From Pyropia yezoensis (Eukaryota > Rhodophyta > Bangiophyceae > Bangiales > Bangiaceae), in the NCBI GenBank assembly GCA_009829735.1, contig CM020618.1:34386894-34450893 (forward strand): DNA of 64,000 bases, read 5' to 3'. The translations under genes were made by a program, and so were the position numbers. Under the pieces are notes generated by a model. That model ran no database searches, was not told the origin of the DNA, and saw nothing but the letters and a program-made list of their open reading frames with translations. Position 1 is the first letter of the stretch, and each line of letters begins with the position of its first letter. Below, one piece after another: positions 10,847-40,995 of this stretch.

Positions 10847-10847
10847 T

Positions 10848-19600: not shown

Positions 19601-19709
19601 GAATTGGGTGACGCGGGACGGCCTCATCGACTTTCCGACAACGCACCCGATTGATGATGCAAGCGACCTCCACCAGCGACGCTTCTTCGTCAATGCATTT
19701 GCTTTTTAG
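16602..19709 (+). pseudogene. Second copy of the KDZ-like transposase (5' end lost in the gap)
   Basis: Same gene as 3237-6873, starting inside exon 1 at the contig edge. Exon 2 is about 17723-18220 and exon 3 about 18427-19709, with the intron between them. Here GTATGG replaces GTATGGG at the start of exon 2. Extra or missing bases near 19471 and 19603 break exon 3, which reads open in the other copy. These are likely sequencing indels, so the 3237-6873 copy is the better model. Confidence 0.7.
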
Positions 19710-20703: not shown

Positions 20704-20880
20704 GATCTGTGTTGCAGCGCAATACAAGAAGATGCGGCGATACACAAGTCATGACATGTATTGCAGTGGTGCTCTTTTTTCATCAGTGCGCGGTCTTCAC
20801 TTGATTTTGCAGTACGTTGCAGTGGAAACTTGTGAAATGCAACGCCATGCAGTGTTTGTGATTGAGTTGCATGTGGTTCC
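20704..20880 (+). repeat. Second copy of the TTGCA/TGCAA motif cluster
   Basis: Repeat of 7866-8042 in the right contig. The non-coding stretch before it (19710-20703) holds nothing else supported, apart from the copy of the small hairpin. Confidence 0.3.
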
Positions 20881-21542: not shown

Positions 21543-21567
21543 TACTTGAGGGCGAGGAAGGCGGGAG

Positions 21568-23034
21568 TCACAGGGGAAGGGAGGAGGGAAGAGGCGGAGA
21601 GAAGGGTTGCTCGAACGGGTGCTTGCTTGTTTTCCAGTAGTTCCATGCTTGTAATGCTTGATTCCTTGATACACCCGTTCCCTTGTATGAATCTTCTTGT
21701 TCCTCGACAGTTGCGGCCGAGCTCGCCTCGTCTAGCAAGCCCCGGTCAGCTCCTTCCTTCTCGTCATCCTCAGAGTCTGAATCTAGGATCTTGCCAGCTC
21801 TGGCCACCTGGGTGCCCTCAATCCCGTTCCGCCGCGTGTAGGCACATACATCAGCAATGGGTAACCGGTTGGATGGCTTCCAGGTATTACCAGCCGTGTT
21901 GAAGCCGAACCAGCGTACGCGCAGGTATAGGCGTCCCTCCATCCAGGCATGGTCCACAAACTTGATGTAGACATTCTCGGCCTTACTGTCGGGATAACTA
22001 GGGTACCGCAGCGCGCTTGCGTCGAGTCAGGTCTGGCTTTCTTGGCGGTGGAGTTCGAGTAACGTGTTCACTACTCACCCGGAACAGTGAGTCATCAACT
22101 TCTAGAAGGAACGTCCAGCCGTCCGTGCTAAGAATTTCGTAGGGCCCATCCGTCCTGGAGTCCAGTTTCTCCCGGGTCTTACTGTGGCTATCCACGAAAA
22201 CCCAGTCGCCATCACGCAGTTCCTTGTTCTTTTCCCGGACACCCTTGTCAAAGTTCCGCTTGTATCGCACCTGAGTCTTCGCGATTGAATCCTTGACTGG
22301 TGGTAGAAGGAGCTTCAGTTGTTTCAGGAACTCCTCTTTTGCCTTGGGGCCCGGCTTCAGGGCAGGTTGGAGACCGTCCTGTATTCTTTTCAGGGAGAAT
22401 TTGGTCAGCCGCCTTAGGGTGACAAAGTGCAGTGGGGCTACTCCGGTCGTCCGGCGAATACGAGAGTTGTAGGCCAGAGTCAGGACAGCTATGAGCTCGT
22501 CCCAGCCTTCTTGATGCTCCTCGACGTAGTGCCGGAGCATGCCCAGCACGGTCCGGTTGAATCGCTCCACTTGACCATTCGTTTGTGGGTGGTACGTCGT
22601 AGTAAACAAGTTCTTGATACCCACCAGATCGCAGACTCCTTGGAAGAACAGGGATACAAACTGGGGACCGTTGTCGGTCAAGACGGAGTCCGGGGGGTCG
22701 TAGGGGGCTATCCAGTACTCATAGAAGGCCGATGTGACGTCCAGGGCCGTAATAGTTTTCAGTGGGATTGCTCGAATGAACTCGGAGAACCGGTCACAGA
22801 TAATGAGCACGTAAAGGTTGCCACTGGATGTATCAGGTTGGGGCCTCAGGATACCATACTCAAGCTTTCAAAGGGTTTCGCCGCTGGAAACAGGCGTAGC
22901 TTAAGAGTCTTCTGCCACTGGGTCAACCGGTTCCTTGCACAGGAGACACAGCCGTCTAGATGGTTATGGACGTCACTTGCCAAAGGTTTCCCAGTAGTAG
23001 TGTCGCCGCATCGAGGCATACATCCGGTTGATGC
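21568..23034 (-). pseudogene. Family B integrase and chromodomain, second copy
   Basis: Repeat of 8730-10196: zinc-finger Cys half (22846-23034), integrase core (21998-22810, SVLTDNGPQF and QVERFNRT) and chromodomain with acidic tail (21568-21957), with the same frameshifts. The sequence stops at the family C LTR. The remaining 5' part of this element continues at 41638. Confidence 0.75.
23030..23034 (+). repeat. Target site duplication GATGC, left
   Basis: GATGC directly before the LTR at 23035 matches GATGC at 41638-41642 directly after the last LTR. Five bases is the usual duplication for Ty3/gypsy integration. Also seen at 10192-10196 in the overlapping contig. Confidence 0.85.
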
Positions 23035-23683
23035 TGTGGCATAAATACCCCCCGCACCGCACCCGCCTAAGGGGACGGGGGCGTGCAGGGGTCGGGCCAC
23101 GGGCGGAACGGGACGCTGCCAGCGCCAAGTGCTGGCAGCACGCCCGCCGCCGCCCGGGCGATCCTGCCCCCCGACGCCTGCTGGCGTCGGGCAGCACCTG
23201 CGGCCGCGACTGGTGATCCGCCACCAGGCGTGACCCCCCCTGGGCAAACAAGTGGCGGGCGTGCGCCGGCGGGCGATCCCACCACTTGTTGGAGCTCCCG
23301 GGCTCGTGGAGGGCAGCCACGTGGAGCCAGATCTAGTACTCCCTGTGACAACCGACGGGAGTTACCCGTCGGTTGTGGCAAGCCCTTTCGGGGGTACTTA
23401 ACTATTTTCGCATGTAATTATCGTCTTGGAGGGATTTCTTATCGTTTCTAAGGACAGGCCGGACCAACCGGGTCGGCCTCGCCGATCGAGGGTTGCGACC
23501 GGCCGGCGGGGCCCTCTTCAGGGCCCGCGCCGGCGGTCTCGTCTCGCATCTCCTTGCTCGGCAGGTTTACACGTATCCTTCTTTGTCCCGTTTACTTGCC
23601 TTTGACTTGGCACTGCGGTTACGAGCCTGTACGTGACTCCTCCCCTTGGGTACAGTCCCCCGCGGGGGTCCCGTCTTGCCACA
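23035..23683 (+). repeat. Family C LTR, second copy
   Basis: 649 bp; one G fewer than the other copies in the run at about 23391. Termini are TGTGGCA/TGCCACA. It is followed by the primer site at 23685-23703. Confidence 0.9.
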
Positions 23684-23703
23684 TTGGTGGAGCAGCAGGG
23701 GAT

Positions 23704-24360
23704 GGAGTCAACTGGCTGTTGCAAAAGTACGCAACACCCGACAAGTTAAACGAGGCGTACTCGGACATCATCTCTGCCCACCAAGAGCAAGAAGAAGCTC
23801 CTCGTTCGTTCGGCGAACGCCTGGAGCGCATGTGCGATCGACTCGACGGTCTCTTCAACAGCGGCGATATCGTTGACACCTTCGTCAACGGCCTCAACGA
23901 CGCTGTCAAGGCGCATGTGCTCACCTTCCAGATGACCAAGGGCCGCGTATCGCTCCCCGAGGCGATCACGGCTGCCCAAATCTACTGGACCGGCATCCAG
24001 AAGATGAAAGTCGACTTGCGTCGACACATCCGGAACACCACGACTCCGATCCGAGTCGCTACGGTGCCCGACGCGGTGGGCGTGGCAGCAGCGGTAGTGA
24101 CACCACCGCTACCGCCCCGCTTCGCGCGTGTCGAGCGAGACACGCCAGCGGTACCACGGCCGCGATCGCCGTCACCCCGTCGAGCAGCGGCCCCGACGGA
24201 CGAGTGCTACAACTGCCACAACTTCGGTCACTTCCTAGCGGAGTGCCCCGAGCCCCGGCGCCCGCGGCGTCAAGATCGCGACGCAGGCCGCGTCAACGCG
24301 GTCGTCGACGCAATGGTCGACGAGCAAGTCAACCCACCGGAGCAGAACCAGGAAAACTAG
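23704..24360 (+). pseudogene. Family C gag remnant, second copy
   Basis: Same N-terminally truncated Gag as at 10867-11523, with zinc knuckle CYNCHNFGHFLAEC and a TAG at 24358-24360. It overlaps the pol frame, which lies one base back (-1). GGAAAAC directly precedes the stop; it is not a canonical slippery heptamer, so the way pol is reached is unclear. Confidence 0.7.
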
Positions 24361-27300
24361 GGGGTCGGCCGCCCAAGCCCGGAGCAGCCGACCGACCCCG
24401 TGACCCCGGCAAACCTTCCCGTGACCCGACCAAGCGCTCAACCTCCATCCTCAACGCGGCCTACCGGCACTACACCGTGCCACTGTGCCTGGGGCCCGCC
24501 CCAGAGCACATGCGTGCCATGCACCCGACGCTCGACACCGGCGCAGGCCTTAACCTCATTCGGGTTGATGCCCTGCCCAAAGACTGGCCTTCGTACGCTA
24601 CGAAGGAACGAAGGACACCCAACGTAGTGGATGCCAATGGCAACCCACTTCCGGTCATCGCGGCTATCAACATCATCGTCGACACCGGCAACGTCAAGAT
24701 GATCTCGACGTTCCACGTCGTGGCAAGCATGGCTGTGCCGGCCATACTTGGCACACGATTCATCAACCAGCACGTGGAAGCTATCTACCCACGATTGGAG
24801 AAGGTGTACTGGGCAGCCCCCGACTCGCCACAATCGGTGTGCATGCCCATCCTTGACGCGGACGTCAAGCAACTTCAACAAGGCAAGGTGCGTCTCGCCA
24901 AGCGGACGACGCTGCCACCCCTGTGCGAGGTAATCGCACAGACGAATTGCGACATCCCCGGGTTGGTCCACGTCCAGACCAACTCTCGGCTGCACCAGAG
25001 GCACCAGATCATCTTGGCGAATGGGCTGGCGTCCTCATCACCCGGCGTGCCCTTCCAAGTCAAGCTCTGCAACGTCGGTACTGCGACCCGACATCTCCAG
25101 AAGGGCACCGTCATTGGGTTCGCCGAGGTGTACTCCGGGCCCGTCATCGCCCTCGTCGATGAAAAACCACAACCTCCGGCGGACAAGCCCCCACCGTCGA
25201 TCGAAGACGTGGATCTTACGGACGCACCCAAGAACCTGCACGCCCGCATCCGCAAGATGCTGGACAAACACAAGATCATGTGGGATGGCAAGCTCGGCTC
25301 CATCCACGCCACCGTCCACCGTATCGAAACGGACGACAAGGCGCTACCAATCCACATGGCCTCGTACCGGACCGGCTTGCGCAAGCGCGAGATCATCACG
25401 GACTGCGTCAACGCGATGCTGAAGCAAGACGTCATCAGACCAAGCCGCAGCGACTGGTCGAGCCCAGTCGTCGTCGTTCCCAAGAAGAACGGCAAGCCAA
25501 GGTTCTGCGTCGACTACCGACGCCTTAACGCGATCACCAAGAAGGACACGTACCCCATCCCTCGGATGGACGACTGCCTAGACTCCTTGGGCGAGGCGCA
25601 GTTCTTCTCAACGCTCGACTGTACGGCGGGGTACTGGCAAGTGCCCCTCCGCAAGGAGGATCAAGAGAAGACGGCCTTCGCGTGCCATGACGGTCTCTTC
25701 GAGTGGGTCGTCATGCCGTTCGGGCTTACGAATGCACCCGCGACCTTCCAACGAGCCCTCGACATCATCTTGTCGGGCCTCAAGTGGCAGATGTGCCTCG
25801 TCTACCTTGACGACGTCATCGTCTTCTCCAAGACGGCGGAAGACCACGTGCGCCATCTTGACTTGGTCTTGACACGTCTGCGCAAGGCAGGCGTCACGCT
25901 CAACCTCGAGAAGTGCGCCTTCTTCAAGCGCGAGGTCGAGTACCTCGGGCACATCATCTGCCCCGGCCAGCTGAAGGTGCACAACAAGAACACCGACGCC
26001 CTTCGGGAGGCAAGCTTCCCCAAGACCAAGACACAGATGAAGAGCTTCCTCGGGGCCTGCAACGTCTATCGGCGCTTCGTCAAGGACTTCGCCAAGAGAG
26101 CACGCCCCTTGACCGAGCTGACCAAGAACGACGTTGGCCCCGAGCTGCCGCAGCCAACGGACGCGCAACGCGCGTCCTTCGAGGACCTCAAGGGGGCACT
26201 AGTGTCTCCACCCGTGCTCACCATCCCGCATCCAACACGTCGCTTTGTAGTCGACGTCGACGCGTGCGCAGACCAACTGGGATGCGCCTTGCTGCAGGAA
26301 CAACAAGACGGTGAGCTGCTGCCCGTCGGCTTCTACAGCCGCACGCTCAAGCCAGCCGAGCAGAACTACTGCACGACCGAGCGCGAGTGCTTGGGCCTCG
26401 TCTGGGGTGTCTTGTACCTCCGACACTTCCTTGACGGCAACGTCTTCACAGTGCGCACCGACCACCAAGCGCTGCGGTGGATCTACAACACCACCGACCC
26501 GAGCAGTCGCTTGATGCGATGGCGACTGCGCTTGGCAGAGTTCACCTTCGACGTCCAGTACAAGCCTGGGGCAAGCCATCACGCCCCAGACTTCCTGTCG
26601 CGCACGCGCACGGACGCCTTGGACGACTCCGACATCGACGACGAGATCCCATGCTTGAGTCTGGCCGAGACGGCCAGAAGCTTGCAGAAGGGGCGGTACA
26701 CGCACTCGACAAGGCTTACGCCGATTGCGTTCGACGACCTCGTGGCCGACCAAGCAACCGACGCCTTGTGCAAGGTGATTCGCGAGAAGATGGCCGACGA
26801 CAAGGCCCCCAACTTCTCGATGAAGGGCGGCGCGCTGTACCGCCAAGGGGTCAACGGTGATCAACTCGTCGTACCCCACAAACACCGAGCCAAGCTGCTC
26901 GACCTTGCGCACTTCCCAACGACGGAGGGACATCCGGGATCGAACCGGATGTACTACTCAATGCGGCGCCGCTTTTACTGGCCATCGATGGCGACCGACG
27001 CCTACGGCGTGGTGACCAGGTGCGCAGCTTGTGCGCAGAGTCGACTGGCGTTGCGGCGCCACACGGCGCCAATGAGGCTCTTCCCGTCGACCGAGCCGTT
27101 GACGGAGGTCAACGTCGACATCCTTGGGCCCCTGCCCAAGTCCTTGTCACGCAACAGGTACATCCTTGTCTTCACCGACCGCTTCTCTAAGGTCGTCCGG
27201 TGCGTGGCCTTGCGGAAGATCACGGCCGTCACCGTCGCCTCGGCCTTGATCGAGGTGTGGGTGGCAAGCTATGGCCCCCCCGACATCCTCCTGTCGGACC

Positions 27301-28898
27301 AAGGAAGCCAGTTCATGTCGAAGTTCTTCCTTGCCGTCTGCCGCTCCCTCGGCATCGAGACGAGGGAGTCGACGCCGTACCACCCGCAGACGAACGGCCA
27401 AGTGGAGCGGTACAACCGAACCATCATCAAGCAGATCCGGCACTACGTCGCGGACAACCCGAGGCGATGGGATGAGCTATTGCCGATCCTCACGTACGCG
27501 TACAACACGCAGCCGCACCGCTCGACCGGAGTGGCCCCGTTCGAGATGGTCATCCCAAGGAGGATCCCCAACCTCTCGGTGCACAGCCCGCCGCCTGGCG
27601 TGGCCATCCAGGCGCACGGCACCACCAAGGACGGGTCGCCCTTGTCCGTCAAACGCTCCTTCATGGCCCGCCTCCGGAAGACCATCCCGTTGGTCGCCGA
27701 AGCGCTGCGCAAGACGCAGCAGCGGTACAAGAAGAACTACGACAAGAACCTTGCCATCCGGAACAAGGACGTCAAGATCGGCGACTACGTCTACCTCAAG
27801 AACAACCAGAGGGAGCACAAGTTGTCAAGCCTGACAACGGGCCCGTTCCTTGTCGTCGACCTCGACGACAAAACCTTCGTCGTCCAGATGGGCGACGAGG
27901 AGAGCCGGGTGTCATGGGACCAAGCAACACCGGCACCACGGCCGGACGCGGCCGGCCAGGCCAACTCGACGCCGCACGCCCTTCTCAAGGACAAGGTCAA
28001 CTTAGCCGACCAGCCGTCGGTGCTCGACGACTACCTCATCGACAAACTCGTCGGGCTACGGATCGTCGATGGCGAGCACCAAGCACGTGTACGTTGGTGG
28101 GGATACCAACGTGACGTAGACACTTGGAAGCCCCTCGACGAACTACCGAAGCACCTCGTGCTTCGGTACCTGCGGACCCAGAACAAGCGGGTACCCGGGT
28201 ACGACTGGGCCCCCATCAAGATGACTCTGCGTTCGCAGAGCCAAGGCCTCCCACACCCCGATGCCCGCGTCAACATCGTTGCCGACGCGGAGCCGTGGGT
28301 CCCCACCATCGTGGCGTTCCACCGAGCCACTGACGGACACGTCCAAGCGCGTCTGCACTGGACTCACCCACGCGGCGACGTGGGCGAGATCATCCCACTG
28401 TACTGCCTACGCAGTACATTCCCCAAGAACTTCCCGCGCAACATACCTGAGCGCGACGACTGGACGACGCCCCGCGTCATCGTCGACCGGCTGGAACGCC
28501 TCCATGGCCCGCACACCATCGACTTGTTCGCCAATCGGGCGAACAAGCAGTTCCGCCGCTATGGGTCTGCGGAGGCAGACCCCGACGCAGTCTGGTGCGA
28601 CTCAACACGGCACTCTTGGGAACAGGAGAACGCCTGGGCCAACCCGCCCCCGTCGCTCCTGCCCAAGGTAGCGGACAGGCTGTCAAGTAGCCCCCCATTG
28701 GCACTTACGGTCATTGCCCCCAAGTGGGAAGGGCAAGAGTGGTACGGAGTCTTCATGGCGCAGTGCTTCGAGTACGAAGAATTGCCCATGGAAATTGCCG
28801 ACTTCAAGCCCACGAGTACCAACTTGCTGGTCACCGAACACCCACCGGTGTGGACCATGATGTGTTTTCGCTTCGAGCGAAATCATATCTATGGGTAG
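24204..28898 (+). CDS. pol: Family C Pol polyprotein with chromodomain and methyltransferase-like C-terminus
   Basis: The open frame is about 1,564 codons; 24204 is a GTG in the gag overlap and no ATG occurs before about residue 103, so it is probably made by -1 frameshifting. Residue positions are approximate. Protease DTGAG at 111. Reverse transcriptase with YRRLN, PFGLTNAPATFQ and YLDD at 534. RNase H VDVDA at 683 and TERECLGLVW. Integrase finger GHPGSNRMYY...CAACAQSR near 905-945, and core Asp (VDILGPLP), Asp (SDQGSQF) and Glu (QVERYNRT) near 970, 1030 and 1067. Chromodomain near 1276-1330 (ARVRWWGY ... DTWKPLDEL). The protein then continues 230 residues: WTTP (1419), HTIDLFANRANKQF, NPPP (1480) and APKWEGQEWY (1505). 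This tail resembles phage-type DNA N6-adenine methyltransferases and the similar domain of DIRS retroelements; the fourth residue of the catalytic NPP(Y/F) motif is Pro, so activity is doubtful. All core catalytic residues of the other domains are present. Confidence 0.9.
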   Translation: MLQLPQLRSLPSGVPRAPAPAASRSRRRPRQRGRRRNGRRASQPTGAEPGKLGGRPPKPGAADRPRDPGKPSRDPTKRSTSILNAAYRHYTVPLCLGPAPEHMRAMHPTLDTGAGLNLIRVDALPKDWPSYATKERRTPNVVDANGNPLPVIAAINIIVDTGNVKMISTFHVVASMAVPAILGTRFINQHVEAIYPRLEKVYWAAPDSPQSVCMPILDADVKQLQQGKVRLAKRTTLPPLCEVIAQTNCDIPGLVHVQTNSRLHQRHQIILANGLASSSPGVPFQVKLCNVGTATRHLQKGTVIGFAEVYSGPVIALVDEKPQPPADKPPPSIEDVDLTDAPKNLHARIRKMLDKHKIMWDGKLGSIHATVHRIETDDKALPIHMASYRTGLRKREIITDCVNAMLKQDVIRPSRSDWSSPVVVVPKKNGKPRFCVDYRRLNAITKKDTYPIPRMDDCLDSLGEAQFFSTLDCTAGYWQVPLRKEDQEKTAFACHDGLFEWVVMPFGLTNAPATFQRALDIILSGLKWQMCLVYLDDVIVFSKTAEDHVRHLDLVLTRLRKAGVTLNLEKCAFFKREVEYLGHIICPGQLKVHNKNTDALREASFPKTKTQMKSFLGACNVYRRFVKDFAKRARPLTELTKNDVGPELPQPTDAQRASFEDLKGALVSPPVLTIPHPTRRFVVDVDACADQLGCALLQEQQDGELLPVGFYSRTLKPAEQNYCTTERECLGLVWGVLYLRHFLDGNVFTVRTDHQALRWIYNTTDPSSRLMRWRLRLAEFTFDVQYKPGASHHAPDFLSRTRTDALDDSDIDDEIPCLSLAETARSLQKGRYTHSTRLTPIAFDDLVADQATDALCKVIREKMADDKAPNFSMKGGALYRQGVNGDQLVVPHKHRAKLLDLAHFPTTEGHPGSNRMYYSMRRRFYWPSMATDAYGVVTRCAACAQSRLALRRHTAPMRLFPSTEPLTEVNVDILGPLPKSLSRNRYILVFTDRFSKVVRCVALRKITAVTVASALIEVWVASYGPPDILLSDQGSQFMSKFFLAVCRSLGIETRESTPYHPQTNGQVERYNRTIIKQIRHYVADNPRRWDELLPILTYAYNTQPHRSTGVAPFEMVIPRRIPNLSVHSPPPGVAIQAHGTTKDGSPLSVKRSFMARLRKTIPLVAEALRKTQQRYKKNYDKNLAIRNKDVKIGDYVYLKNNQREHKLSSLTTGPFLVVDLDDKTFVVQMGDEESRVSWDQATPAPRPDAAGQANSTPHALLKDKVNLADQPSVLDDYLIDKLVGLRIVDGEHQARVRWWGYQRDVDTWKPLDELPKHLVLRYLRTQNKRVPGYDWAPIKMTLRSQSQGLPHPDARVNIVADAEPWVPTIVAFHRATDGHVQARLHWTHPRGDVGEIIPLYCLRSTFPKNFPRNIPERDDWTTPRVIVDRLERLHGPHTIDLFANRANKQFRRYGSAEADPDAVWCDSTRHSWEQENAWANPPPSLLPKVADRLSSSPPLALTVIAPKWEGQEWYGVFMAQCFEYEELPMEIADFKPTSTNLLVTEHPPVWTMMCFRFERNHIYG

Positions 28899-29054
28899 TC
28901 GAACCTTTTCTGACCTCCCAACGAAAGATTGAAATCTTTCAAGGATCCGGCCAAAGTCGCATCGTTGTCGACAAACAACGAAAATTGACTACCACACCGT
29001 GTCACCACCAAGGCGACACCAACCAAGCCCCTCACCCCCGTCAATCAAGGGCAA
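28899..29054. other. Intergenic spacer between convergent pol and antisense ORF
   Basis: 156 bases between the two convergent stops with no other feature. The left contig ends inside the equivalent of this spacer. Confidence 0.5.
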
Positions 29055-32018
29055 CTAATGCCCCAGGTCGTGCGCGTTGAAGCGACCCGGTGACTCCCCC
29101 CGCACGCGGCGCACAAGCTCATCCAACGCCTGCCGAAAGCGGTCGTATAACACGGCTCGCGACGCCGCCTTGACAGCGGCGTCGCCAAGCCCCCGCGACG
29201 CAGCCACGTGCGTCGCGCCGTGGAAGCGATCGACCTCGGCCAGCAACGCCTGCTGCACCACCCGCGTGGTCTCGCACCACACGCGGTTGTGCAGCCCCGC
29301 CGGGATATACATCCGGCGGAGGCGCCGCACATCTTCAGCGCGAAAGATGCGCCCAAACGCCGCCTCGTCGGCGTCGGACGCGACGAGGCGAACCCACCCC
29401 GGCGTGGCGCGGTACCCGGACGGGGTACGCGAACGATGCCGAGAACCCGACCGGGAGCGCGAGCGCCCTCGACCGCGCCCCCCGGAGCGCGGCCCACGCC
29501 GCGCCGAGGACGAACGAGAAGACGACGAGGAGGAGCTCGTCGATGCAGAACGCCCGCGTCGACGGCCCGAGCGACGGGACGAACGCCGTCGACGCGGAGA
29601 CACCGACCGACCACGGGATGAACGGCGTGCGCTGGCGGCGTCCTCCGACCGGCTACGTCGGCGCCGGGGCCGACAGCGATCGCCATCGGCCGAGCCGCGC
29701 CCCGGGGGGACACCCCCACGCCCGCGCTTGCCGGCTACAGGCGAAGGCCCGTCGGCACCGGCCGACGGACCGCCATCGGCAGGCGGCGGCGGGCGAGCCC
29801 CTGGACCCATGCCCCCTCGGTCGCCATGCTCGCCCTGCCCATCCAGCGGAATGGGCCCGTCACCAGCGGCTGACGGACACCAACCGGGGGACGCCCACTG
29901 CGAACCCCCGGGCGGCCAACGAGTACGGCCACCGCCGCGACCACCGCGTCCGCGGCCCCGCGCACGTGCGCCGCCGCGGCCACGTCGAAACGGGCCCGCT
30001 CCCCCGTCGCCTCCATGTCGACGAGGGTGGAACTCGCCCGCCTCCCGCCACTGCTTCTCGGCGAAGGCAGCCGCCCGGCGACGCGCCGCCACGTCCGCGG
30101 CAGCCGCCCGACGTTCGGCCTCTTCCACGGCGGCGGCGCGAGCCGCGGCCCCCGCCCGCGCCGCACTGGCGCCATGCGCATCCTGGGCCCCGCCGACGCC
30201 AGTGGCCCCCGCCAACCCTGACTTCTCCTCGTTGACATCCCGGTCAACGGACGCCCCCCCCTCCACGGGCTCGCTGGGCGGCACCGACGAAGACCGACGC
30301 GGGAACCTCCCCGCGTTCAACCGGTCGGCTTCCCGCCGACCAGCCGCCGCGTCGCTGGAGGCGCCCGCCGACGCCGCCCGCTTGGCACGGGCCCGCGCCT
30401 GGTCGGCCTCCAGCGCCGCACGCGCCCGCCGTCGGTCATCCGCCCGCTCACCTTCCTCAGCCGCCAAGCTGGCCGCCAACCGCATAGCGGCCCGCTTCCC
30501 CCCGCGGCGTAACGCCGCCGCCCGCACCGACCGCGACGCACGGACGATGGGCCGGAACTCGGGCGCCAACGAGCCCAAGTGCCGACCCCACGCCCCCGGG
30601 ACCACCACCGGAAGCGCGGCGGTGGCCGTGGACGCCGCCCCATCGTCGCCGTCCTGGCGACGCATCGGCCCGCTACCCGACGGCTCCCCCGCCGTCGGGA
30701 AGCCAGGCAACTGCTCCAACGCGGTGAACCCGTACGACGTCGTCGGCGCGTAACGAACGGCCACCTCCCGGGCGGCAACACCAACGCCTCCCGCCTCGAC
30801 GTACGTCGTCACGCTGGCCCACGGGAATGCCAGGGCTCCGACGACGCAGTTGTGGAACGCCAACGCGTACCCGTTCGGCGACCCGTCTTGCAGGTCGCCC
30901 ACCGGCAGGCGCGCAAACACCTCCAAGAGCGCCCGCTTGAGCCGCACCAACACCTCCTGCTCACGCAGGAGGCGGAACCACGTGGACGCGTAGTCAAACA
31001 CCAGCTCCGTGGACACAATAGTCCACGCAACATGGCTGGCATCGCCCAAGTACGAGAACACGTGCTCCGCCAGCCGCGGCATCGTCGGCGGCGACGACAA
31101 GCCCGACTCAACAAACAAGTCGGGCAGCGCCACCATGTCGGCCGTCTGGACAACGTCGTGCACGTTCAACCACGCCGCCCACACCGGGCACGCGTACCCG
31201 CCGACCATCGCCGCCACCCGGCGGCGCTTGAGCTTGCTGCCCGCCAACGGCGGGGTCTTCAAGTACCCCCCGCCGCGGATCGACAGGTCCATGTCGACCG
31301 GCGTCGTCTCCGAGTACGACGCCGACGAGTTCTGCCGCAAGGCCGCACTCAACGCCGACAACGCCGGCATCGCCGCCGTCGTTGGCGCGTACATCATGTC
31401 CAAGCCATCGTAGATCTCCCCCTCTACGACCCGCGCGTGCGGCCACTCCCGCCGCAGGCGGTCAAACGCCATCGCCGCCGTGTGCACCGGCGAGGAGTGC
31501 CGGCGGTCGTAGTGCTTCGCCGCCACGGCGAAGACGCTGCGCACCCACGGCTGGATGCCCTGCTTGCGCGAAAGCTGCCGCAACACCTCGTTGGCAAAGC
31601 ACAACGCCATATACGTCACCGACTGCACCCCCGGCGAGCCCGCCGCCGGCACGCCATGGACGTCCGCCAACCGCGTGCCCTCGTACGTCGCGACGGGGTC
31701 CGCCTCCGTCACGTCGACAAAGTCGACGGGCAGCTCCCACCGGGCCTCGCCCACCCGCCACAAGCAGTCGCGGTGGTGCGACTGCGCCACGCGTTCGAGC
31801 TCCGCGTTCACCTCGACCGCCGTCGAGGCCGCCGTCAAGTTGGCCCATTCCGCCAACGGCGGGAAGTCGACCTCGTCGGGCAGCCCCGCGTGCCAGCGCG
31901 TCGGCACCGGCATCGTGGCAGCGCAGGCGCGCGAGCAGGGAGTGGGGCGCGCCTCCCCCACTCGCCCAACGTGGTCGTCGAGGGACGACGACAAGCTAAG
32001 GAGGGGGGTATGTGGCAT
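29055..32018 (-). CDS. Family C antisense ORF (Arg/Ser- and Gly-rich protein)
   Basis: An intact frame runs on the strand opposite gag-pol, between pol and the 3' LTR. The first ATG (32018) lies 8 bases inside the LTR and gives 987 residues; the next good ATG is at 31913. Residues to about 450 look globular with aromatic residues spread evenly (WANLTAA, WVRSVFAVAAKHYD, VFSYLGDASHVAW). Then come Ala/Arg/Glu-rich helices (about 500-690), a Gly/Arg RGG-like stretch, a Pro/Gly stretch and an RS-rich stretch (RSVSPRRRRSSRRSG, SSSSSSRSSSARR). A C-terminal globular part follows (GWVRLVASDADEAAF). RGG and RS composition suggests RNA binding or nuclear-speckle-type contacts; this is inference. No catalytic motif is recognised. 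A sense env is excluded by orientation. Confidence 0.75.
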   Translation of the reverse strand: MPHTPLLSLSSSLDDHVGRVGEARPTPCSRACAATMPVPTRWHAGLPDEVDFPPLAEWANLTAASTAVEVNAELERVAQSHHRDCLWRVGEARWELPVDFVDVTEADPVATYEGTRLADVHGVPAAGSPGVQSVTYMALCFANEVLRQLSRKQGIQPWVRSVFAVAAKHYDRRHSSPVHTAAMAFDRLRREWPHARVVEGEIYDGLDMMYAPTTAAMPALSALSAALRQNSSASYSETTPVDMDLSIRGGGYLKTPPLAGSKLKRRRVAAMVGGYACPVWAAWLNVHDVVQTADMVALPDLFVESGLSSPPTMPRLAEHVFSYLGDASHVAWTIVSTELVFDYASTWFRLLREQEVLVRLKRALLEVFARLPVGDLQDGSPNGYALAFHNCVVGALAFPWASVTTYVEAGGVGVAAREVAVRYAPTTSYGFTALEQLPGFPTAGEPSGSGPMRRQDGDDGAASTATAALPVVVPGAWGRHLGSLAPEFRPIVRASRSVRAAALRRGGKRAAMRLAASLAAEEGERADDRRRARAALEADQARARAKRAASAGASSDAAAGRREADRLNAGRFPRRSSSVPPSEPVEGGASVDRDVNEEKSGLAGATGVGGAQDAHGASAARAGAAARAAAVEEAERRAAAADVAARRRAAAFAEKQWREAGEFHPRRHGGDGGAGPFRRGRGGARARGRGRGGRGGGRTRWPPGGSQWASPGWCPSAAGDGPIPLDGQGEHGDRGGMGPGARPPPPADGGPSAGADGPSPVAGKRGRGGVPPGRGSADGDRCRPRRRRSRSEDAASARRSSRGRSVSPRRRRSSRRSGRRRGRSASTSSSSSSSRSSSARRGPRSGGRGRGRSRSRSGSRHRSRTPSGYRATPGWVRLVASDADEAAFGRIFRAEDVRRLRRMYIPAGLHNRVWCETTRVVQQALLAEVDRFHGATHVAASRGLGDAAVKAASRAVLYDRFRQALDELVRRVRGESPGRFNAHDLGH
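31998..32010 (+). promoter_or_regulatory. Polypurine tract, family C
   Basis: AAGGAGGGGGGTA immediately before the LTR at 32011, the expected primer site for plus-strand DNA synthesis. The same tract precedes the LTR at 40988. Confidence 0.75.
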
Positions 32019-32660
32019 AAATACCCCCCGCACCGCACCCGCCTAAGGGGACGGGGGCGTGCAGGGGTCGGGCCACGGGCGGAACGGGACGCTGCCAGCG
32101 CCAAGTGCTGGCAGCACGCCCGCCGCCGCCCGGGCGATCCTGCCCCCCGACGCCTGCTGGCGTCGGGCAGCACCTGCGGCCGCGACTGGTGATCCGCCAC
32201 CAGGCGTGACCCCCCCTGGGCAAACAAGTGGCGGGCGTGCGCCGGCGGGCGATCCCACCACTTGTTGGAGCTCCCGGGCTCGTGGAGGGCAGCCACGTGG
32301 AGCCAGATCTAGTACTCCCTGTGACAACCGACGGGAGTTACCCGTCGGTTGTGGCAAGCCCTTTCGGGGGGTACTTAACTATTTTCGCATGTAATTATCG
32401 TCTTGGAGGGATTTCTTATCGTTTCTAAGGACAGGCCGGACCAACCGGGTCGGCCTCGCCGATCGAGGGTTGCGACCGGCCGGCGGGGCCCTCTTCAGGG
32501 CCCGCGCCGGCGGTCTCGTCTCGCATCTCCTTGCTCGGCAGGTTTACACGTATCCTTCTTTGTCCCGTTTACTTGCCTTTGACTTGGCACTGCGGTTACG
32601 AGCCTGTACGTGACTCCTCCCCTTGGGTACAGTCCCCCGCGGGGGTCCCGTCTTGCCACA
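32011..32660 (+). repeat. Family C LTR, shared central copy
   Basis: 650 bp, TGTGGCA...TGCCACA, same stem-loops as the first LTR. It is at once the 3' LTR of the left unit and the 5' LTR of the right unit; the primer site follows at 32662-32680. Confidence 0.9.
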
Positions 32661-32681
32661 TTGGTGGAGCAGCAGGGGATG

Positions 32682-33337
32682 GAGTCAACTGGCTGTTGCA
32701 AAAGTACGCAACACCCGACAAGTTAAACGAGGCGTACTCGGACATCATCTCTGCCCACCAAGAGCAAGAAGAAGCTCCTCGTTCGTTCGGCGAACGCCTG
32801 GAGCGCATGTGCGATCGACTCGACGGTCTCTTCAACAGCGGCGATATCGTTGACACCTTCGTCAACGGCCTCAACGACGCTGTCAAGGCGCATGTGCTCA
32901 CCTTCCAGATGACCAAGGGCCGCGTATCGCTCCCCGAGGCGATCACGGCTGCCCAAATCTACTGGACCGGCATCCAGAAGATGAAAGTCGACTTGCGTCG
33001 ACACATCCGGAACACCACGACTCCGATCCGAGTCGCTACGGTGCCCGACGCGGTGGGCGTGGCAGCAGCGGTAGTGACACCACCGCTACCGCCCCGCTTC
33101 GCGCGTGTCGAGCGAGACACGCCAGCGGTACCACGGCCGCGATCGCCGTCACCCCGTCGAGCAGCGGCCCCGACGGACGAGTGCTACAACTGCCACAACT
33201 TCGGTCACTTCCTAGCGGAGTGCCCCGAGCCCCGGCGCCCGCGGCGTCAAGATCGCGACGCAGGCCGCGTCAACGCGGTCGTCGACGCAATGGTCGACGA
33301 GCAAGTCAACCCACCGGAGCAGAACCAGGAAAACTAG
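32682..33337 (+). pseudogene. Family C gag remnant, third copy
   Basis: Same truncation and zinc knuckle as the other copies, so the deletion predates the tandem. The stop is at 33335-33337, again overlapping pol by about 155 bases in the -1 frame. Confidence 0.7.
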
Positions 33338-36300
33338 GGGGTCGGCCGCCCAAGCCCGGAGCAGCCGACCGACCCCGTGACCCCGGCAAACCTTCCCGTG
33401 ACCCGACCAAGCGCTCAACCTCCATCCTCAACGCGGCCTACCGGCACTACACCGTGCCACTGTGCCTGGGGCCCGCCCCAGAGCACATGCGTGCCATGCA
33501 CCCGACGCTCGACACCGGCGCAGGCCTTAACCTCATTCGGGTTGATGCCCTGCCCAAAGACTGGCCTTCGTACGCTACGAAGGAACGAAGGACACCCAAC
33601 GTAGTGGATGCCAATGGCAACCCACTTCCGGTCATCGCGGCTATCAACATCATCGTCGACACCGGCAACGTCAAGATGATCTCGACGTTCCACGTCGTGG
33701 CAAGCATGGCTGTGCCGGCCATACTTGGCACACGATTCATCAACCAGCACGTGGAAGCTATCTACCCACGATTGGAGAAGGTGTACTGGGCAGCCCCCGA
33801 CTCGCCACAATCGGTGTGCATGCCCATCCTTGACGCGGACGTCAAGCAACTTCAACAAGGCAAGGTGCGTCTCGCCAAGCGGACGACGCTGCCACCCCTG
33901 TGCGAGGTAATCGCACAGACGAATTGCGACATCCCCGGGTTGGTCCACGTCCAGACCAACTCTCGGCTGCACCAGAGGCACCAGATCATCTTGGCGAATG
34001 GGCTGGCGTCCTCATCACCCGGCGTGCCCTTCCAAGTCAAGCTCTGCAACGTCGGTACTGCGACCCGACATCTCAAGAAGGGCACCGTCATTGGGTTCGC
34101 CGAGGTGTACTCCGGGCCCGTCATCGCCCTCGTCGATGAAAAACCACAACCTCCGGCGGACAAGCCCCCACCGTCGATCGAAGACGTGGATCTTACGGAC
34201 GCACCCAAGAACCTGCACGCCCGCATCCGCAAGATGCTGGACAAACACAAGATCATGTGGGATGGCAAGCTCGGCTCCATCCACGCCACCGTCCACCGTA
34301 TCGAAACGGACGACAAGGCGCTACCAATCCACATGGCCCCGTACCGGACCGGCTTGCGCAAGCGCGAGATCATCACGGACTGCGTCAACGCGATGCTGAA
34401 GCAAGACGTCATCAGACCAAGCCGCAGCGACTGGTCGAGCCCAGTCGTCGTCGTTCCCAAGAAGAACGGCAAGCCAAGGTTCTGCGTCGACTACCGACGC
34501 CTTAACGCGATCACCAAGAAGGACACGTACCCCATCCCTCGGATGGACGACTGCCTAGACTCCTTGGGCGAGGCGCAGTTCTTCTCAACGCTCGACTGTA
34601 CGGCGGGGTACTGGCAAGTGCCCCTCCGCAAGGAGGATCAAGAGAAGACGGCCTTCGCGTGCCATGACGGTCTCTTCGAGTGGGTCGTCATGCCGTTCGG
34701 GCTTACGAATGCACCCGCGACCTTCCAACGAGCCCTCGACATCATCTTGTCGGGCCTCAAGTGGCAGATGTGCCTCGTCTACCTTGACGACGTCATCGTC
34801 TTCTCCAAGACGGCGGAAGACCACGTGCGCCATCTTGACTTGGTCTTGACACGTCTGCGCAAGGCAGGCGTCACGCTCAACCTCGAGAAGTGCGCCTTCT
34901 TCAAGCGCGAGGTCGAGTACCTCGGGCACATCATCTGCCCCGGCCAGCTGAAGGTGCACAACAAGAACACCGACGCCCTTCGGGAGGCAAGCTTCCCCAA
35001 GACCAAGACACAGATGAAGAGCTTCCTCGGGGCCTGCAACGTCTATCGGCGCTTCGTCAAGGACTTCGCCAAGAGAGCACGCCCCTTGACCGAGCTGACC
35101 AAGAACGACGTTGGCCCCGAGCTGCCGCAGCCAATGGACGCGCAACGCGCGTCCTTCGAGGACCTCAAGGGGGCACTAGTGTCTCCACCCGTGCTCACCA
35201 TCCCGCATCCAACACGTCGCTTTGTAGTCGACGTCGACGCGTGCGCAGACCAACTGGGATGCGCCTTGCTGCAGGAACAACAAGACGGTGAGCTGCTGCC
35301 CGTCGGCTTCTACAGCCGCACGCTCAAGCCAGCCGAGCAGAACTACTGCACGACCGAGCGCGAGTGCTTGGGCCTCGTCTGGGGTGTCTTGTACCTCCGA
35401 CACTTCCTTGACGGCAACGTCTTCACAGTGCGCACCGACCACCAAGCGCTGCGGTGGATCTACAACACCACCGACCCGAGCAGTCGCTTGATGCGATGGC
35501 GACTGCGCTTGGCAGAGTTCACCTTCGACGTCCAGTACAAGCCTGGGGCAAGCCATCACGCCCCAGACTTCCTGTCGCGCACGCGCACGGACGCCTTGGA
35601 CGACTCCGACATCGACGACGAGATCCCATGCTTGAGTCTGGCCGAGACGGCCAGAAGCTTGCAGAAGGGGCGGTACACGCACTCGACAAGGCTTACGCCG
35701 ATTGCGTTCGACGACCTCGTGGCCGACCAAGCAACCGACGCCTTGTGGAAGGTGATTCGCGAGAAGATGGCCGACGACAAGGCCCCCAACTTCTCGATGA
35801 AGGGCGGCGCGCTGTACCGCCAAGGGGTCAACGGTGATCAACTCGTCGTACCCCACAAACACCGAGCCAAGCTGCTCGACCTTGCGCACTTCCCAACGAC
35901 GGAGGGACATCCGGGATCGAACCGGATGTACTACTCAATGCGGCGCCGCTTTTACTGGCCATCGATGGCGACCGACGCCTACGGCGTGGTGACCAGGTGC
36001 GCAGCTTGTGCGCAGAGTCGACTGGCGTTGCGGCGCCACACGGCGCCAATGAGGCTCTTCCCGTCGACCGAGCCGTTGACGGAGGTCAACGTCGACATCC
36101 TTGGGCCCCTGCCCAAGTCCTTGTCACGCAACAGGTACATCCTTGTCTTCACCGACCGCTTCTCTAAGGTCGTCCGGTGCGTGGCCTTGCGGAAGATCAC
36201 GGCCGTCACCGTCGCCTCGGCCTTGATCGAGGTGTGGGTGGCAAGCTATGGCCCCCCCGACATCCTCCTGTCGGACCAAGGAAGCCAGTTCATGTCGAAG

Positions 36301-37875
36301 TTCTTCCTTGCCGTCTGCCGCTCCCTCGGCATCGAGACGAGGGAGTCGACGCCGTACCACCCGCAGACGAACGGCCAAGTGGAGCGGTACAACCGAACCA
36401 TCATCAAGCAGATCCGGCACTACGTCGCGGACAACCCGAGGCGATGGGATGAGCTATTGCCGATCCTCACGTACGCGTACAACACGCAGCCGCACCGCTC
36501 GACCGGAGTGGCCCCGTTCGAGATGGTCATCCCAAGGAGGATCCCCAACCTCTCGGTGCACAGCCCGCCGCCTGGCGTGGCCATCCAGGCGCACGGCACC
36601 ACCAAGGACGGGTCGCCCTTGTCCGTCAAACGCTCCTTCATGGCCCGCCTCCGGAAGACCATCCCGTTGGTCGCCGAAGCGCTGCGCAAGACGCAGCAGC
36701 GGTACAAGAAGAACTACGACAAGAACCTTGCCATCCGGAACAAGGACGTCAAGATCGGCGACTACGTCTACCTCAAGAACAACCAGAGGGAGCACAAGTT
36801 GTCAAGCCTGACAACGGGCCCGTTCCTTGTCGTCGACCTCGACGACAAAACCTTCGTCGTCCAGATGGGCGACGAGGAGAGCCGGGTGTCATGGGACCAA
36901 GCAACACCGGCACCACGGCCGGACGCGGCCGGCCAGGCCAACTCGACGCCGCACGCCCTTCTCAAGGACAAGGTCAACTTAGCCGACCAGCCGTCGGTGC
37001 TCGACGACTACCTCATCGACAAACTCGTCGGGCTACGGATCGTCGATGGCGAGCACCAAGCACGTGTACGTTGGTGGGGATACCAACGTGACGTAGACAC
37101 TTGGAAGCCCCTCGACGAACTACCGAAGCACCTCGTGCTTCGGTACCTGCGGACCCAGAACAAGCGGGTACCCGGGTACGACTGGGCCCCCATCAAGATG
37201 ACTCTGCGTTCGCAGAGCCAAGGCCTCCCACACCCCGATGCCCGCGTCAACATCGTTGCCGACGCGGAGCCGTGGGTCCCCACCATCGTGGCGTTCCACC
37301 AAGCCACTGACGGACACGTCCAAGCGCGTCTGCACTGGACTCACCCACGCGGCGACGTGGGCGAGATCATCCCACTGTACTGCCTACGCAGTACATTCCC
37401 CAAGAACTTCCCGCGCAACATACCTGAGCGCGACGACTGGACGACGCCCCGCGTCATCGTCGACCGGCTGGAACGCCTCCATGGCCCGCACACCATCGAC
37501 TTGTTCGCCAATCGGGCGAACAAGCAGTTCCGCCGCTATGGGTCTGCGGAGGCAGACCCCGACGCAGTCTGGTGCGACTCAACACGGCACTCTTGGGAAC
37601 AGGAGAACGCCTGGGCCAACCCGCCCCCGTCGCTCCTGCCCAAGGTAGCGGACAGGCTGTCAAGTAGCCCCCCATTGGCACTTACGGTCATTGCCCCCAA
37701 GTGGGAAGGGCAAGAGTGGTACGGAGTCTTCATGGCGCAGTGCTTCGAGTACGAAGAATTGCCCATGGAAATTGCCGACTTCAAGCCCACGAGTACCAAC
37801 TTGCTGGTCACCGAACACCCACCGGTGTGGACCATGATGTGTTTTCGCTTCGAGCGAAATCATATCTATGGGTAG
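33181..37875 (+). CDS. pol: Family C Pol polyprotein, second tandem unit
   Basis: Full-length frame with the same domain order and catalytic motifs as at 24204-28898. Differences seen: Gln to Lys before KGTVIGF, Ser to Pro in the RT entry region (HMAPYRTG), Thr to Met (QPMDAQ), Cys to Trp (DALWKVIRE) and Arg to Gln (FHQATDG). None touches a catalytic residue. The methyltransferase-like tail, including WTTP, DLFAN, NPPP and APKW, is unchanged. Confidence 0.9.
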   Translation: MLQLPQLRSLPSGVPRAPAPAASRSRRRPRQRGRRRNGRRASQPTGAEPGKLGGRPPKPGAADRPRDPGKPSRDPTKRSTSILNAAYRHYTVPLCLGPAPEHMRAMHPTLDTGAGLNLIRVDALPKDWPSYATKERRTPNVVDANGNPLPVIAAINIIVDTGNVKMISTFHVVASMAVPAILGTRFINQHVEAIYPRLEKVYWAAPDSPQSVCMPILDADVKQLQQGKVRLAKRTTLPPLCEVIAQTNCDIPGLVHVQTNSRLHQRHQIILANGLASSSPGVPFQVKLCNVGTATRHLKKGTVIGFAEVYSGPVIALVDEKPQPPADKPPPSIEDVDLTDAPKNLHARIRKMLDKHKIMWDGKLGSIHATVHRIETDDKALPIHMAPYRTGLRKREIITDCVNAMLKQDVIRPSRSDWSSPVVVVPKKNGKPRFCVDYRRLNAITKKDTYPIPRMDDCLDSLGEAQFFSTLDCTAGYWQVPLRKEDQEKTAFACHDGLFEWVVMPFGLTNAPATFQRALDIILSGLKWQMCLVYLDDVIVFSKTAEDHVRHLDLVLTRLRKAGVTLNLEKCAFFKREVEYLGHIICPGQLKVHNKNTDALREASFPKTKTQMKSFLGACNVYRRFVKDFAKRARPLTELTKNDVGPELPQPMDAQRASFEDLKGALVSPPVLTIPHPTRRFVVDVDACADQLGCALLQEQQDGELLPVGFYSRTLKPAEQNYCTTERECLGLVWGVLYLRHFLDGNVFTVRTDHQALRWIYNTTDPSSRLMRWRLRLAEFTFDVQYKPGASHHAPDFLSRTRTDALDDSDIDDEIPCLSLAETARSLQKGRYTHSTRLTPIAFDDLVADQATDALWKVIREKMADDKAPNFSMKGGALYRQGVNGDQLVVPHKHRAKLLDLAHFPTTEGHPGSNRMYYSMRRRFYWPSMATDAYGVVTRCAACAQSRLALRRHTAPMRLFPSTEPLTEVNVDILGPLPKSLSRNRYILVFTDRFSKVVRCVALRKITAVTVASALIEVWVASYGPPDILLSDQGSQFMSKFFLAVCRSLGIETRESTPYHPQTNGQVERYNRTIIKQIRHYVADNPRRWDELLPILTYAYNTQPHRSTGVAPFEMVIPRRIPNLSVHSPPPGVAIQAHGTTKDGSPLSVKRSFMARLRKTIPLVAEALRKTQQRYKKNYDKNLAIRNKDVKIGDYVYLKNNQREHKLSSLTTGPFLVVDLDDKTFVVQMGDEESRVSWDQATPAPRPDAAGQANSTPHALLKDKVNLADQPSVLDDYLIDKLVGLRIVDGEHQARVRWWGYQRDVDTWKPLDELPKHLVLRYLRTQNKRVPGYDWAPIKMTLRSQSQGLPHPDARVNIVADAEPWVPTIVAFHQATDGHVQARLHWTHPRGDVGEIIPLYCLRSTFPKNFPRNIPERDDWTTPRVIVDRLERLHGPHTIDLFANRANKQFRRYGSAEADPDAVWCDSTRHSWEQENAWANPPPSLLPKVADRLSSSPPLALTVIAPKWEGQEWYGVFMAQCFEYEELPMEIADFKPTSTNLLVTEHPPVWTMMCFRFERNHIYG

Positions 37876-38031
37876 TCGAACCTTTTCTGACCTCCCAACG
37901 AAAGATTGAAATCTTTCAAGGATCCGGCCAAAGTCGCATCGTTGTCGACAAACAACGAAAATTGACTACCACACCGTGTCACCACCAAGGCGACACCAAC
38001 CAAGCCCCTCACCCCCGTCAATCAAGGGCAA

Positions 38032-40995
38032 CTAATGCCCCAGGTCGTGCGCGTTGAAGCGACCCGGTGACTCCCCCCGCACGCGGCGCACAAGCTCATC
38101 CAACGCCTGCCGAAAGCGGTCGTATAACACGGCTCGCGACGCCGCCTTGACAGCGGCGTCGCCAAGCCCCCGCGACGCAGCCACGTGCGTCGCGCCGTGG
38201 AAGCGATCGACCTCGGCCAGCAACGCCTGCTGCACCACCCGCGTGGTCTCGCACCACACGCGGTTGTGCAGCCCCGCCGGGATATACATCCGGCGGAGGC
38301 GCCGCACATCTTCAGCGCGAAAGATGCGCCCAAACGCCGCCTCGTCGGCGTCGGACGCGACGAGGCGAACCCACCCCGGCGTGGCGCGGTACCCGGACGG
38401 GGTACGCGAACGATGCCGAGAACCCGACCGGGAGCGCGAGCGCCCTCGACCGCGCCCCCCGGAGCGCGGCCCACGCCGCGCCGAGGACGAACGAGAAGAC
38501 GACGAGGAGGAGCTCGTCGATGCAGAACGCCCGCGTCGACGGCCCGAGCGACGGGACGAACGCCGTCGACGCGGAGACACCGACCGACCACGGGATGAAC
38601 GGCGTGCGCTGGCGGCGTCCTCCGACCGGCTACGTCGGCGCCGGGGCCGACAGCGATCGCCATCGGCCGAGCCGCGCCCCGGGGGGACACCCCCACGCCC
38701 GCGCTTGCCGGCTACAGGCGAAGGCCCGTCGGCACCGGCCGACGGACCGCCATCGGCAGGCGGCGGCGGGCGAGCCCCTGGACCCATGCCCCCTCGGTCG
38801 CCATGCTCGCCCTGCCCATCCAGCGGAATGGGCCCGTCACCAGCGGCTGACGGACACCAACCGGGGGACGCCCACTGCGAACCCCCGGGCGGCCAACGAG
38901 TACGGCCACCGCCGCGACCACCGCGTCCGCGGCCCCGCGCACGTGCGCCGCCGCGGCCACGTCGAAACGGGCCCGCTCCCCCGTCGCCTCCATGTCGACG
39001 AGGGTGGAACTCGCCCGCCTCCCGCCACTGCTTCTCGGCGAAGGCAGCCGCCCGGCGACGCGCCGCCACGTCCGCGGCAGCCGCCCGACGTTCGGCCTCT
39101 TCCACGGCGGCGGCGCGAGCCGCGGCCCCCGCCCGCGCCGCACTGGCGCCATGCGCATCCTGGGCCCCGCCGACGCCAGTGGCCCCCGCCAACCCTGACT
39201 TCTCCTCGTTGACATCCCGGTCAACGGACGCCCCCCCCTCCACGGGCTCGCTGGGCGGCACCGACGAAGACCGACGCGGGAACCTCCCCGCGTTCAACCG
39301 GTCGGCTTCCCGCCGACCAGCCGCCGCGTCGCTGGAGGCGCCCGCCGACGCCGCCCGCTTGGCACGGGCCCGCGCCTGGTCGGCCTCCAGCGCCGCACGC
39401 GCCCGCCGTCGGTCATCCGCCCGCTCACCTTCCTCAGCCGCCAAGCTGGCCGCCAACCGCATAGCGGCCCGCTTCCCCCCGCGGCGTAACGCCGCCGCCC
39501 GCACCGACCGCGACGCACGGACGATGGGCCGGAACTCGGGCGCCAACGAGCCCAAGTGCCGACCCCACGCCCCCGGGACCACCACCGGAAGCGCGGCGGT
39601 GGCCGTGGACGCCGCCCCATCGTCGCCGTCCTGGCGACGCATCGGCCCGCTACCCGACGGCTCCCCCGCCGTCGGGAAGCCAGGCAACTGCTCCAACGCG
39701 GTGAACCCGTACGACGTCGTCGGCGCGTAACGAACGGCCACCTCCCGGGCGGCAACACCAACGCCTCCCGCCTCGACGTACGTCGTCACGCTGGCCCACG
39801 GGAATGCCAGGGCTCCGACGACGCAGTTGTGGAACGCCAACGCGTACCCGTTCGGCGACCCGTCTTGCAGGTCGCCCACCGGCAGGCGCGCAAACACCTC
39901 CAAGAGCGCCCGCTTGAGCCGCACCAACACCTCCTGCTCACGCAGGAGGCGGAACCACGTGGACGCGTAGTCAAACACCAGCTCCGTGGACACAATAGTC
40001 CACGCAACATGGCTGGCATCGCCCAAGTACGAGAACACGTGCTCCGCCAGCCGCGGCATCGTCGGCGGCGACGACAAGCCCGACTCAACAAACAAGTCGG
40101 GCAGCGCCACCATGTCGGCCGTCTGGACAACGTCGTGCACGTTCAACCACGCCGCCCACACCGGGCACGCGTACCCGCCGACCATCGCCGCCACCCGGCG
40201 GCGCTTGAGCTTGCTGCCCGCCAACGGCGGGGTCTTCAAGTACCCCCCGCCGCGGATCGACAGGTCCATGTCGACCGGCGTCGTCTCCGAGTACGACGCC
40301 GACGAGTTCTGCCGCAAGGCCGCACTCAACGCCGACAACGCCGGCATCGCCGCCGTCGTTGGCGCGTACATCATGTCCAAGCCATCGTAGATCTCCCCCT
40401 CTACGACCCGCGCGTGCGGCCACTCCCGCCGCAGGCGGTCAAACGCCATCGCCGCCGTGTGCACCGGCGAGGAGTGCCGGCGGTCGTAGTGCTTCGCCGC
40501 CACGGCGAAGACGCTGCGCACCCACGGCTGGATGCCCTGCTTGCGCGAAAGCTGCCGCAACACCTCGTTGGCAAAGCACAACGCCATATACGTCACCGAC
40601 TGCACCCCCGGCGAGCCCGCCGCCGGCACGCCATGGACGTCCGCCAACCGCGTGCCCTCGTACGTCGCGACGGGGTCCGCCTCCGTCACGTCGACAAAGT
40701 CGACGGGCAGCTCCCACCGGGCCTCGCCCACCCGCCACAAGCAGTCGCGGTGGTGCGACTGCGCCACGCGTTCGAGCTCCGCGTTCACCTCGACCGCCGT
40801 CGAGGCCGCCGTCAAGTTGGCCCATTCCGCCAACGGCGGGAAGTCGACCTCGTCGGGCAGCCCCGCGTGCCAGCGCGTCGGCACCGGCATCGTGGCAGCG
40901 CAGGCGCGCGAGCAGGGAGTGGGGCGCGCCTCCCCCACTCGCCCAACGTGGTCGTCGAGGGACGACGACAAGCTAAGGAGGGGGGTATGTGGCAT
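38032..40995 (-). CDS. Family C antisense ORF, second tandem unit
   Basis: Same protein as at 29055-32018; the two translations look identical, whereas pol differs at five residues. It starts with an ATG 8 bases inside the LTR at 40988 and ends 156 bases from the convergent pol stop. Same globular, RGG-like and RS-rich layout. Function unknown. Confidence 0.75.
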   Translation of the reverse strand: MPHTPLLSLSSSLDDHVGRVGEARPTPCSRACAATMPVPTRWHAGLPDEVDFPPLAEWANLTAASTAVEVNAELERVAQSHHRDCLWRVGEARWELPVDFVDVTEADPVATYEGTRLADVHGVPAAGSPGVQSVTYMALCFANEVLRQLSRKQGIQPWVRSVFAVAAKHYDRRHSSPVHTAAMAFDRLRREWPHARVVEGEIYDGLDMMYAPTTAAMPALSALSAALRQNSSASYSETTPVDMDLSIRGGGYLKTPPLAGSKLKRRRVAAMVGGYACPVWAAWLNVHDVVQTADMVALPDLFVESGLSSPPTMPRLAEHVFSYLGDASHVAWTIVSTELVFDYASTWFRLLREQEVLVRLKRALLEVFARLPVGDLQDGSPNGYALAFHNCVVGALAFPWASVTTYVEAGGVGVAAREVAVRYAPTTSYGFTALEQLPGFPTAGEPSGSGPMRRQDGDDGAASTATAALPVVVPGAWGRHLGSLAPEFRPIVRASRSVRAAALRRGGKRAAMRLAASLAAEEGERADDRRRARAALEADQARARAKRAASAGASSDAAAGRREADRLNAGRFPRRSSSVPPSEPVEGGASVDRDVNEEKSGLAGATGVGGAQDAHGASAARAGAAARAAAVEEAERRAAAADVAARRRAAAFAEKQWREAGEFHPRRHGGDGGAGPFRRGRGGARARGRGRGGRGGGRTRWPPGGSQWASPGWCPSAAGDGPIPLDGQGEHGDRGGMGPGARPPPPADGGPSAGADGPSPVAGKRGRGGVPPGRGSADGDRCRPRRRRSRSEDAASARRSSRGRSVSPRRRRSSRRSGRRRGRSASTSSSSSSSRSSSARRGPRSGGRGRGRSRSRSGSRHRSRTPSGYRATPGWVRLVASDADEAAFGRIFRAEDVRRLRRMYIPAGLHNRVWCETTRVVQQALLAEVDRFHGATHVAASRGLGDAAVKAASRAVLYDRFRQALDELVRRVRGESPGRFNAHDLGH

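Follow-up and report, generated by a model that had tools for sequence, protein, structure and literature searches.

An antisense accessory gene between pol and the 3' LTR in a Ty3/gypsy lineage of the red alga Pyropia yezoensis, and its possible role as a trans-acting regulator

The reading frame at 29055-32018 raises the question of whether an ORF of 987 codons, lying opposite to the pol gene of a Ty3/gypsy retrotransposon and between pol and the 3' LTR, is a gene in its own right and, if so, what it might do for the element. The window, i.e. the whole 64,000-nucleotide stretch of Pyropia yezoensis DNA analysed here, holds members of several Ty3/gypsy families, called A to E below. The published P. 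yezoensis assembly has scaffolds of 43.6, 34.3 and 29.4 Mb and, according to the accessible part of the report, consists of 48% repeats, with LTR elements predominant (PMC7423979). The features needed for the argument are the following:

1 to 955, minus strand: 5' part of the family A antisense ORF; the rest lies in flanking locus L039, from 5008 onward
1514 to 1877, plus strand: probable 3' LTR of family A, located solely from its end motifs and a purine tract
23035 to 41637, plus strand: family C tandem array, LTR-internal-LTR-internal-LTR, with LTRs of about 650 bp at 23035, 32011 and 40988 and a single GATGC target duplication
24204 to 28898, plus strand: pol of C copy 1 (protease, RT, RNase H, integrase, weak chromodomain, Dam-like C-terminus)
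29055 to 32018, minus strand: antisense ORF of C copy 1, 987 codons
33181 to 37875, plus strand: pol of C copy 2
38032 to 40995, minus strand: antisense ORF of C copy 2, 987 codons, protein identical to that of copy 1
48300 to 48943, minus strand: 3' LTR of family D, with a GAGCG duplication
49516 (ATG) to 51261 (stop), plus strand: antisense ORF of family D, 581 codons from the ATG
51644 to 55580, minus strand: pol of family D, interrupted in the window copy by frame changes and an in-frame stop
57172 to 57640, plus strand: 5' LTR of family E, 99.4% identical to the 3' LTR at 66080-66548 (outside the window)
59703 to 63338, plus strand: pol of family E, ending at an in-frame stop; similarity runs on to 63641
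63798 to 64000, minus strand: 3' end of the family E antisense ORF, continuing outside the window to an ATG at about 65741

Families A, C, D and E all have the antisense ORF in the interval from pol to the 3' LTR, tail to tail with pol, the LTR of A being a motif placement only. The coordinates and orientation that the first-pass annotation had given for the intact ORFs of C and D proved correct, and the two ORFs that it had taken to be cut by the window edges were completed beyond them: that of A extends left to about window position -1492 (L039:5008), giving 900 codons from stop to stop, with pol ending tail to tail at L039:4526, and that of E occupies L040:298-2412, with 724 codons from stop to stop and 704 amino acids from a TTG. 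The convergent stops are 156 bases apart in C, about 111 in E, about 382 in D and 481 in A; no gap of 25, the lower end of the spacing put forward earlier, was found. The 5' LTR of D, past the window edge at about 66836-67479, is 98% identical to its 3' LTR, and the E element (57172-66548, with a CCCCG duplication) is nested inside D. The antisense ORFs of C, D and E are thus inside mobile units bounded by target duplications. The pol order typical of Ty3/gypsy elements (protease, RT, RNase H, integrase) was found by Pfam in A, C and E; in D, RT and RNase H were found by Pfam and the remaining domains by tblastn. TG...CA ends and a 5-bp target duplication are present in C, D and E, with a single LTR seen for A, and a purine tract before the 3' LTR can be read in C and E. 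In C copy 1, the first ATG of the antisense ORF falls inside the edge of the 3' LTR; the annotated protein P0005 begins at a later ATG, at about 31913, for which the alignment shows a methionine in P0006. The LTRs of C (23035), D (48300), E (57172) and A (1514) also share inverted ends that go beyond a plain TG...CA, reading TGTGGC...GCCACA, TGTAGC...GCTACA or a mixture of the two.

The decayed antisense ORF formerly assigned to family B (8041-8704) had to be given up, as no frame in this region matches the antisense proteins of the other families. By its position, the region fits a decayed minus-strand element split by the insertion of C. The fragments flanking the C array, at 21832-23029 and 41638-45637 (both minus strand; the latter includes the pol fragment 41641-44265), correspond to consecutive parts of pol and were therefore read as halves of one element; B and the fragments beyond the array apparently represent a single decayed minus-strand gypsy element, split by the C array. 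The same part of the window contains a 12.3-kb direct duplication (3768-16101 and 16602-28935), 99.9% identical and with about 500 bp between the copies, which includes portions of both the B element and C and has its breakpoint immediately behind the C pol. A fragment of a Plavaka-type transposase (4694-5422, plus strand; PF18759, E 2.4e-8) adjoins the B remnant.

The antisense frames are longer than base composition would lead one to expect. We compared each interval with Markov sequences of order 1 and of order 2, 1000 of each, and the observed length was reached by none of them in any of the four families. The longest simulated frames were 494 codons for E (724 observed), 567 for A (900 observed), 449 for D (663 observed) and 966 for C (984 observed), the last coming closest because the C interval is 72% GC; this interval also holds a sense frame of 564 codons.

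The pattern of substitution points in the same direction. The D antisense protein has 71 scored places in the genome, at 38-100% identity, with 38 of the matched stretches free of stops and 33 containing stops. Of 30 loci fetched, 28 have a convergent pol past the end of the ORF, and two, L011 and L035, have none within the flank. Of 48 D loci fetched, the 28 whose ORF reached 480 codons or more were compared in 378 pairs, and the median dN/dS in the true frame was 0.28 for the 267 pairs below 85% nucleotide identity, 0.38 for 69 pairs at 85-97% and 0.52 for 42 pairs above 97%, values that the exclusion of broken copies biases downwards; a recalculation with a slightly different site count gave similar values. 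Four other frames gave 1.15-1.71 in the diverged pairs and 1.0-1.7 over the three identity classes. The mirror frame also stayed below 1 (0.47 in diverged pairs, 0.47-0.51 over the three classes), as would be expected from the coincidence of its third positions with those of the true frame.

Family A behaves similarly. Its antisense protein has 68 scored places, 64 of them without stops, and the eight best copies show 7, 1 and 26 variable sites at codon positions 1, 2 and 3 (650 sites each) and no indel columns. In pol of the same copies, 11 of 338, 8 of 339 and 34 of 339 sites vary at the three positions, and in the intergenic stretch 21 of 481. The median dN/dS was 0.21 over 55 pairs (the eight best copies plus three of the four lowest-ranked of the 68), a sample made up mostly of top protein matches and hence favouring few amino-acid changes; three pairs of low-ranked copies gave 0.25-0.38. 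Upstream of the query, the A frame has no coding pattern (11, 11 and 5 variable sites of 251 per codon position), and the true start of the gene is therefore probably internal to the long frame. With medians well below 1, the antisense ORF evolves as a coding gene under purifying selection in A and D, the families tested.

Are the antisense proteins of the different families related? BLASTP from E found A (2e-9), D (4e-7) and C (1e-6), and shuffle tests of the core gave 5e-11 for E-A, 2e-7 for E-D, 7e-7 for E-C and 3e-3 for A-D, those of A-C (0.1) and C-D (0.97) being non-significant. The hhalign probability was 95.5% for D-E, 81% for E-A and 80% for D-A, compared with 8% for E-C and less than 1% for D-C and A-C. 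Taken together, these comparisons argue that the antisense proteins of A, D and E are homologous, and that the C protein, through its similarity to E alone, probably belongs to the same family. Protein relatives beyond the fetched loci include P0006 (about 50% to C over 250 amino acids), the E-like P0008-P0010 (56-72%) and the D-like P0012, P0014 and P0015 (about 42-59%). P0011 and P0013, by contrast, are near copies of fetched loci (98%), and P0007 is a near copy of E (96%). In the second protein search, alignment A1 covered the N-terminal part of A only. For the C protein, the relatives with a name are P. yezoensis hypothetical proteins.

The carriers also group together by their integrases. 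In a tree of 17 rows, with L002 (too short) and four window rows (duplicates) left out, A, B, C, D and E were separated from 11 rows of another gypsy lineage with a branch support of 100/100; the order within the A-E group, which has long branches, is not resolved, and the 11 other rows include many near copies. Among 3595 integrase candidates, the other lineage was examined for an antisense gene in four copies, three of them about 94-98% alike. Their shared sequence ends about 2.1-2.3 kb past the integrase zinc finger, and only roughly 0.3-0.4 kb separates the first block of shared sequence from the following one, taken as the LTR, which leaves too little room for such a gene. None of the four copies gave a convincing match to the four antisense profiles; a match of 22 residues between L069 and the E profile, at E 0.028, was attributed to chance. 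Within this sampling, the antisense gene carriers all fall in one of two gypsy lineages, and the simplest account would be a single gain in the A-E lineage before the families split. The lineage-wide accessory gene proposed in the first-pass annotation is thereby strengthened: E matches A, C and D, selection is purifying in A and D, and the carriers belong to one sampled lineage. Its description as a chromodomain lineage can be kept at most tentatively, since the PF00385 matches of C (21.7 bits), E (19.6) and A (15.2) are below the Pfam cut-off of 25.1. The other lineage scores 58 bits (L067), clearly above it, and is chromovirus-like. Behind the weak chromodomain, the end of the C pol (27903-28895 and 36880-37872, plus strand) also carries a Dam-like domain (PF05869, 32.1 bits, cut-off 28.1). 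Dam domains are reported for DIRS elements in the accessible text of one source (PMC6338049), and one in a gypsy pol looks unusual.

The profile and structure comparisons suggested at the outset did not lead to a known relative. The C and D proteins had no Pfam match at E 1, the 29 aligned members of the A, D and E types had none at E 0.5, TRP28 (PF04195) included, and neither PDB sequences nor fold comparison gave a convincing match. The core is predicted, with modest confidence, to be mixed helix and strand. The tail of C is very basic and rich in Arg, Ser and Gly (25 of 60 residues Arg or Lys in its densest stretch), with Arg-Ser pairs not enriched beyond composition; that of E is basic (19 of 60), and A and D are without a basic tail (11 of 60 each).

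We favour, with moderate confidence, a model in which one red algal Ty3/gypsy lineage is ambisense, with gag-pol on one strand and an accessory gene on the other, before the 3' LTR. This gene would have been gained once, before A, C, D and E split, and then kept; its transcripts would start at an antisense promoter within the 3' LTR or next to it, and its product would act in trans, the most likely role being that of a nucleic-acid-binding regulator of transcription, RNA handling or cDNA of the element itself. The regulator part, to which we give a moderate probability, is suggested by the position of the gene, by analogy with plant antisense genes and by the basic tails. A broader form, which we put forward only tentatively, is that nori-related red algae harbour an ambisense clade whose once-gained gene has a novel fold, is needed in trans if the elements are to transpose and is held by selection no less tightly than pol.

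Other explanations account for parts of these data. Chance ORFs in GC-rich DNA, arising where space allows, might be suggested by the composition and long sense frame of the C interval, but are barely credible given the Markov controls in four of four families and the homology among the proteins, and are refuted for A and D by dN/dS. It is also very improbable that the antisense RNA matters rather than a protein, controlling the element as dsRNA with pol or 3' end RNA: this has been proposed for plant antisense ORFs, according to the accessible part of a review (PMC7264820), yet constraint by codon position and the absence of indels are not predicted by an RNA function.

Among the readings that retain a coding gene, a structural or particle protein encoded on the opposite strand, such as a second capsid-like or cell-exit protein, would fit the length and mostly unmatched sequence of the product, and accessory ORFs that follow pol in sense orientation often resemble env (PMC7264820, accessible part). 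We nevertheless think it rather unlikely, as there is no similarity to the gag proteins tested and an opposite-strand promoter would seem ill suited to a particle protein needed together with gag. The gene could instead have been captured from the host, once or several times, and have diverged while keeping its host function; gene capture by LTR elements is documented in the same part of that review (PMC7264820), but protein searches of limited sensitivity returned only P. yezoensis hypothetical proteins and contigs, with no host relative, and a Pfam search, likewise of limited sensitivity, returned no family, which makes this origin quite improbable. The trans-acting regulator thus remains our preferred reading.

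The location of the gene is already known from plants and a fungus, and the red algal protein is, by its sequence, unlike the plant one. Antisense ORFs in red algal elements were not found described in the titles and abstracts covered, subscription journals being mostly outside that scope. In plants, the accessible parts of two sources place antisense ORFs between pol and the 3' LTR in Ty3/gypsy elements of the Retand lineage, in Grande (gene23), in RIRE2 and in PvRetro13, report a nuclear location and an own promoter for the Grande protein, and propose that the Grande and Retand proteins regulate their own element (PMC7264820, PMC11963269). In this material, Retand-type elements resemble A, C, D and E in having an antisense protein gene in the same interval, family-wide, with its function unproved in plants. 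The two groups differ in host, plants as opposed to a red alga, and in the protein, since those of Retand carry TRP28 (PF04195), reported only from flowering plants, whereas the nori proteins have no Pfam match; Retand is moreover described as non-chromovirus, whereas the nori elements have a weak chromodomain after integrase. If our model is correct, red algae join the hosts in which LTR retrotransposons carry antisense accessory genes, here for a protein that differs from that of plants, which suggests that a backwards gene before the 3' LTR has been adopted more than once. At least two of these transposon genes are publicly annotated as hypothetical proteins, and the many nearly identical, recent copies of A offer a practical system for studying what such genes do. 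Like the nori elements, chromoviruses are Ty3/gypsy elements with a chromodomain-like end of pol, but the domain is below the Pfam cut-off in A, C and E, and A-E stand well apart from the lineage of this genome whose chromodomain is clear. Boty of the fungus Botrytis is described as having an antisense gene, brtn, in the same place. A final parallel, in layout only, is with HBZ of HTLV-1 and related retroviral genes, which, according to the accessible parts of the two sources, are antisense, lie at the 3' end and encode a nuclear regulator (PMC11963269, PMC7264820).
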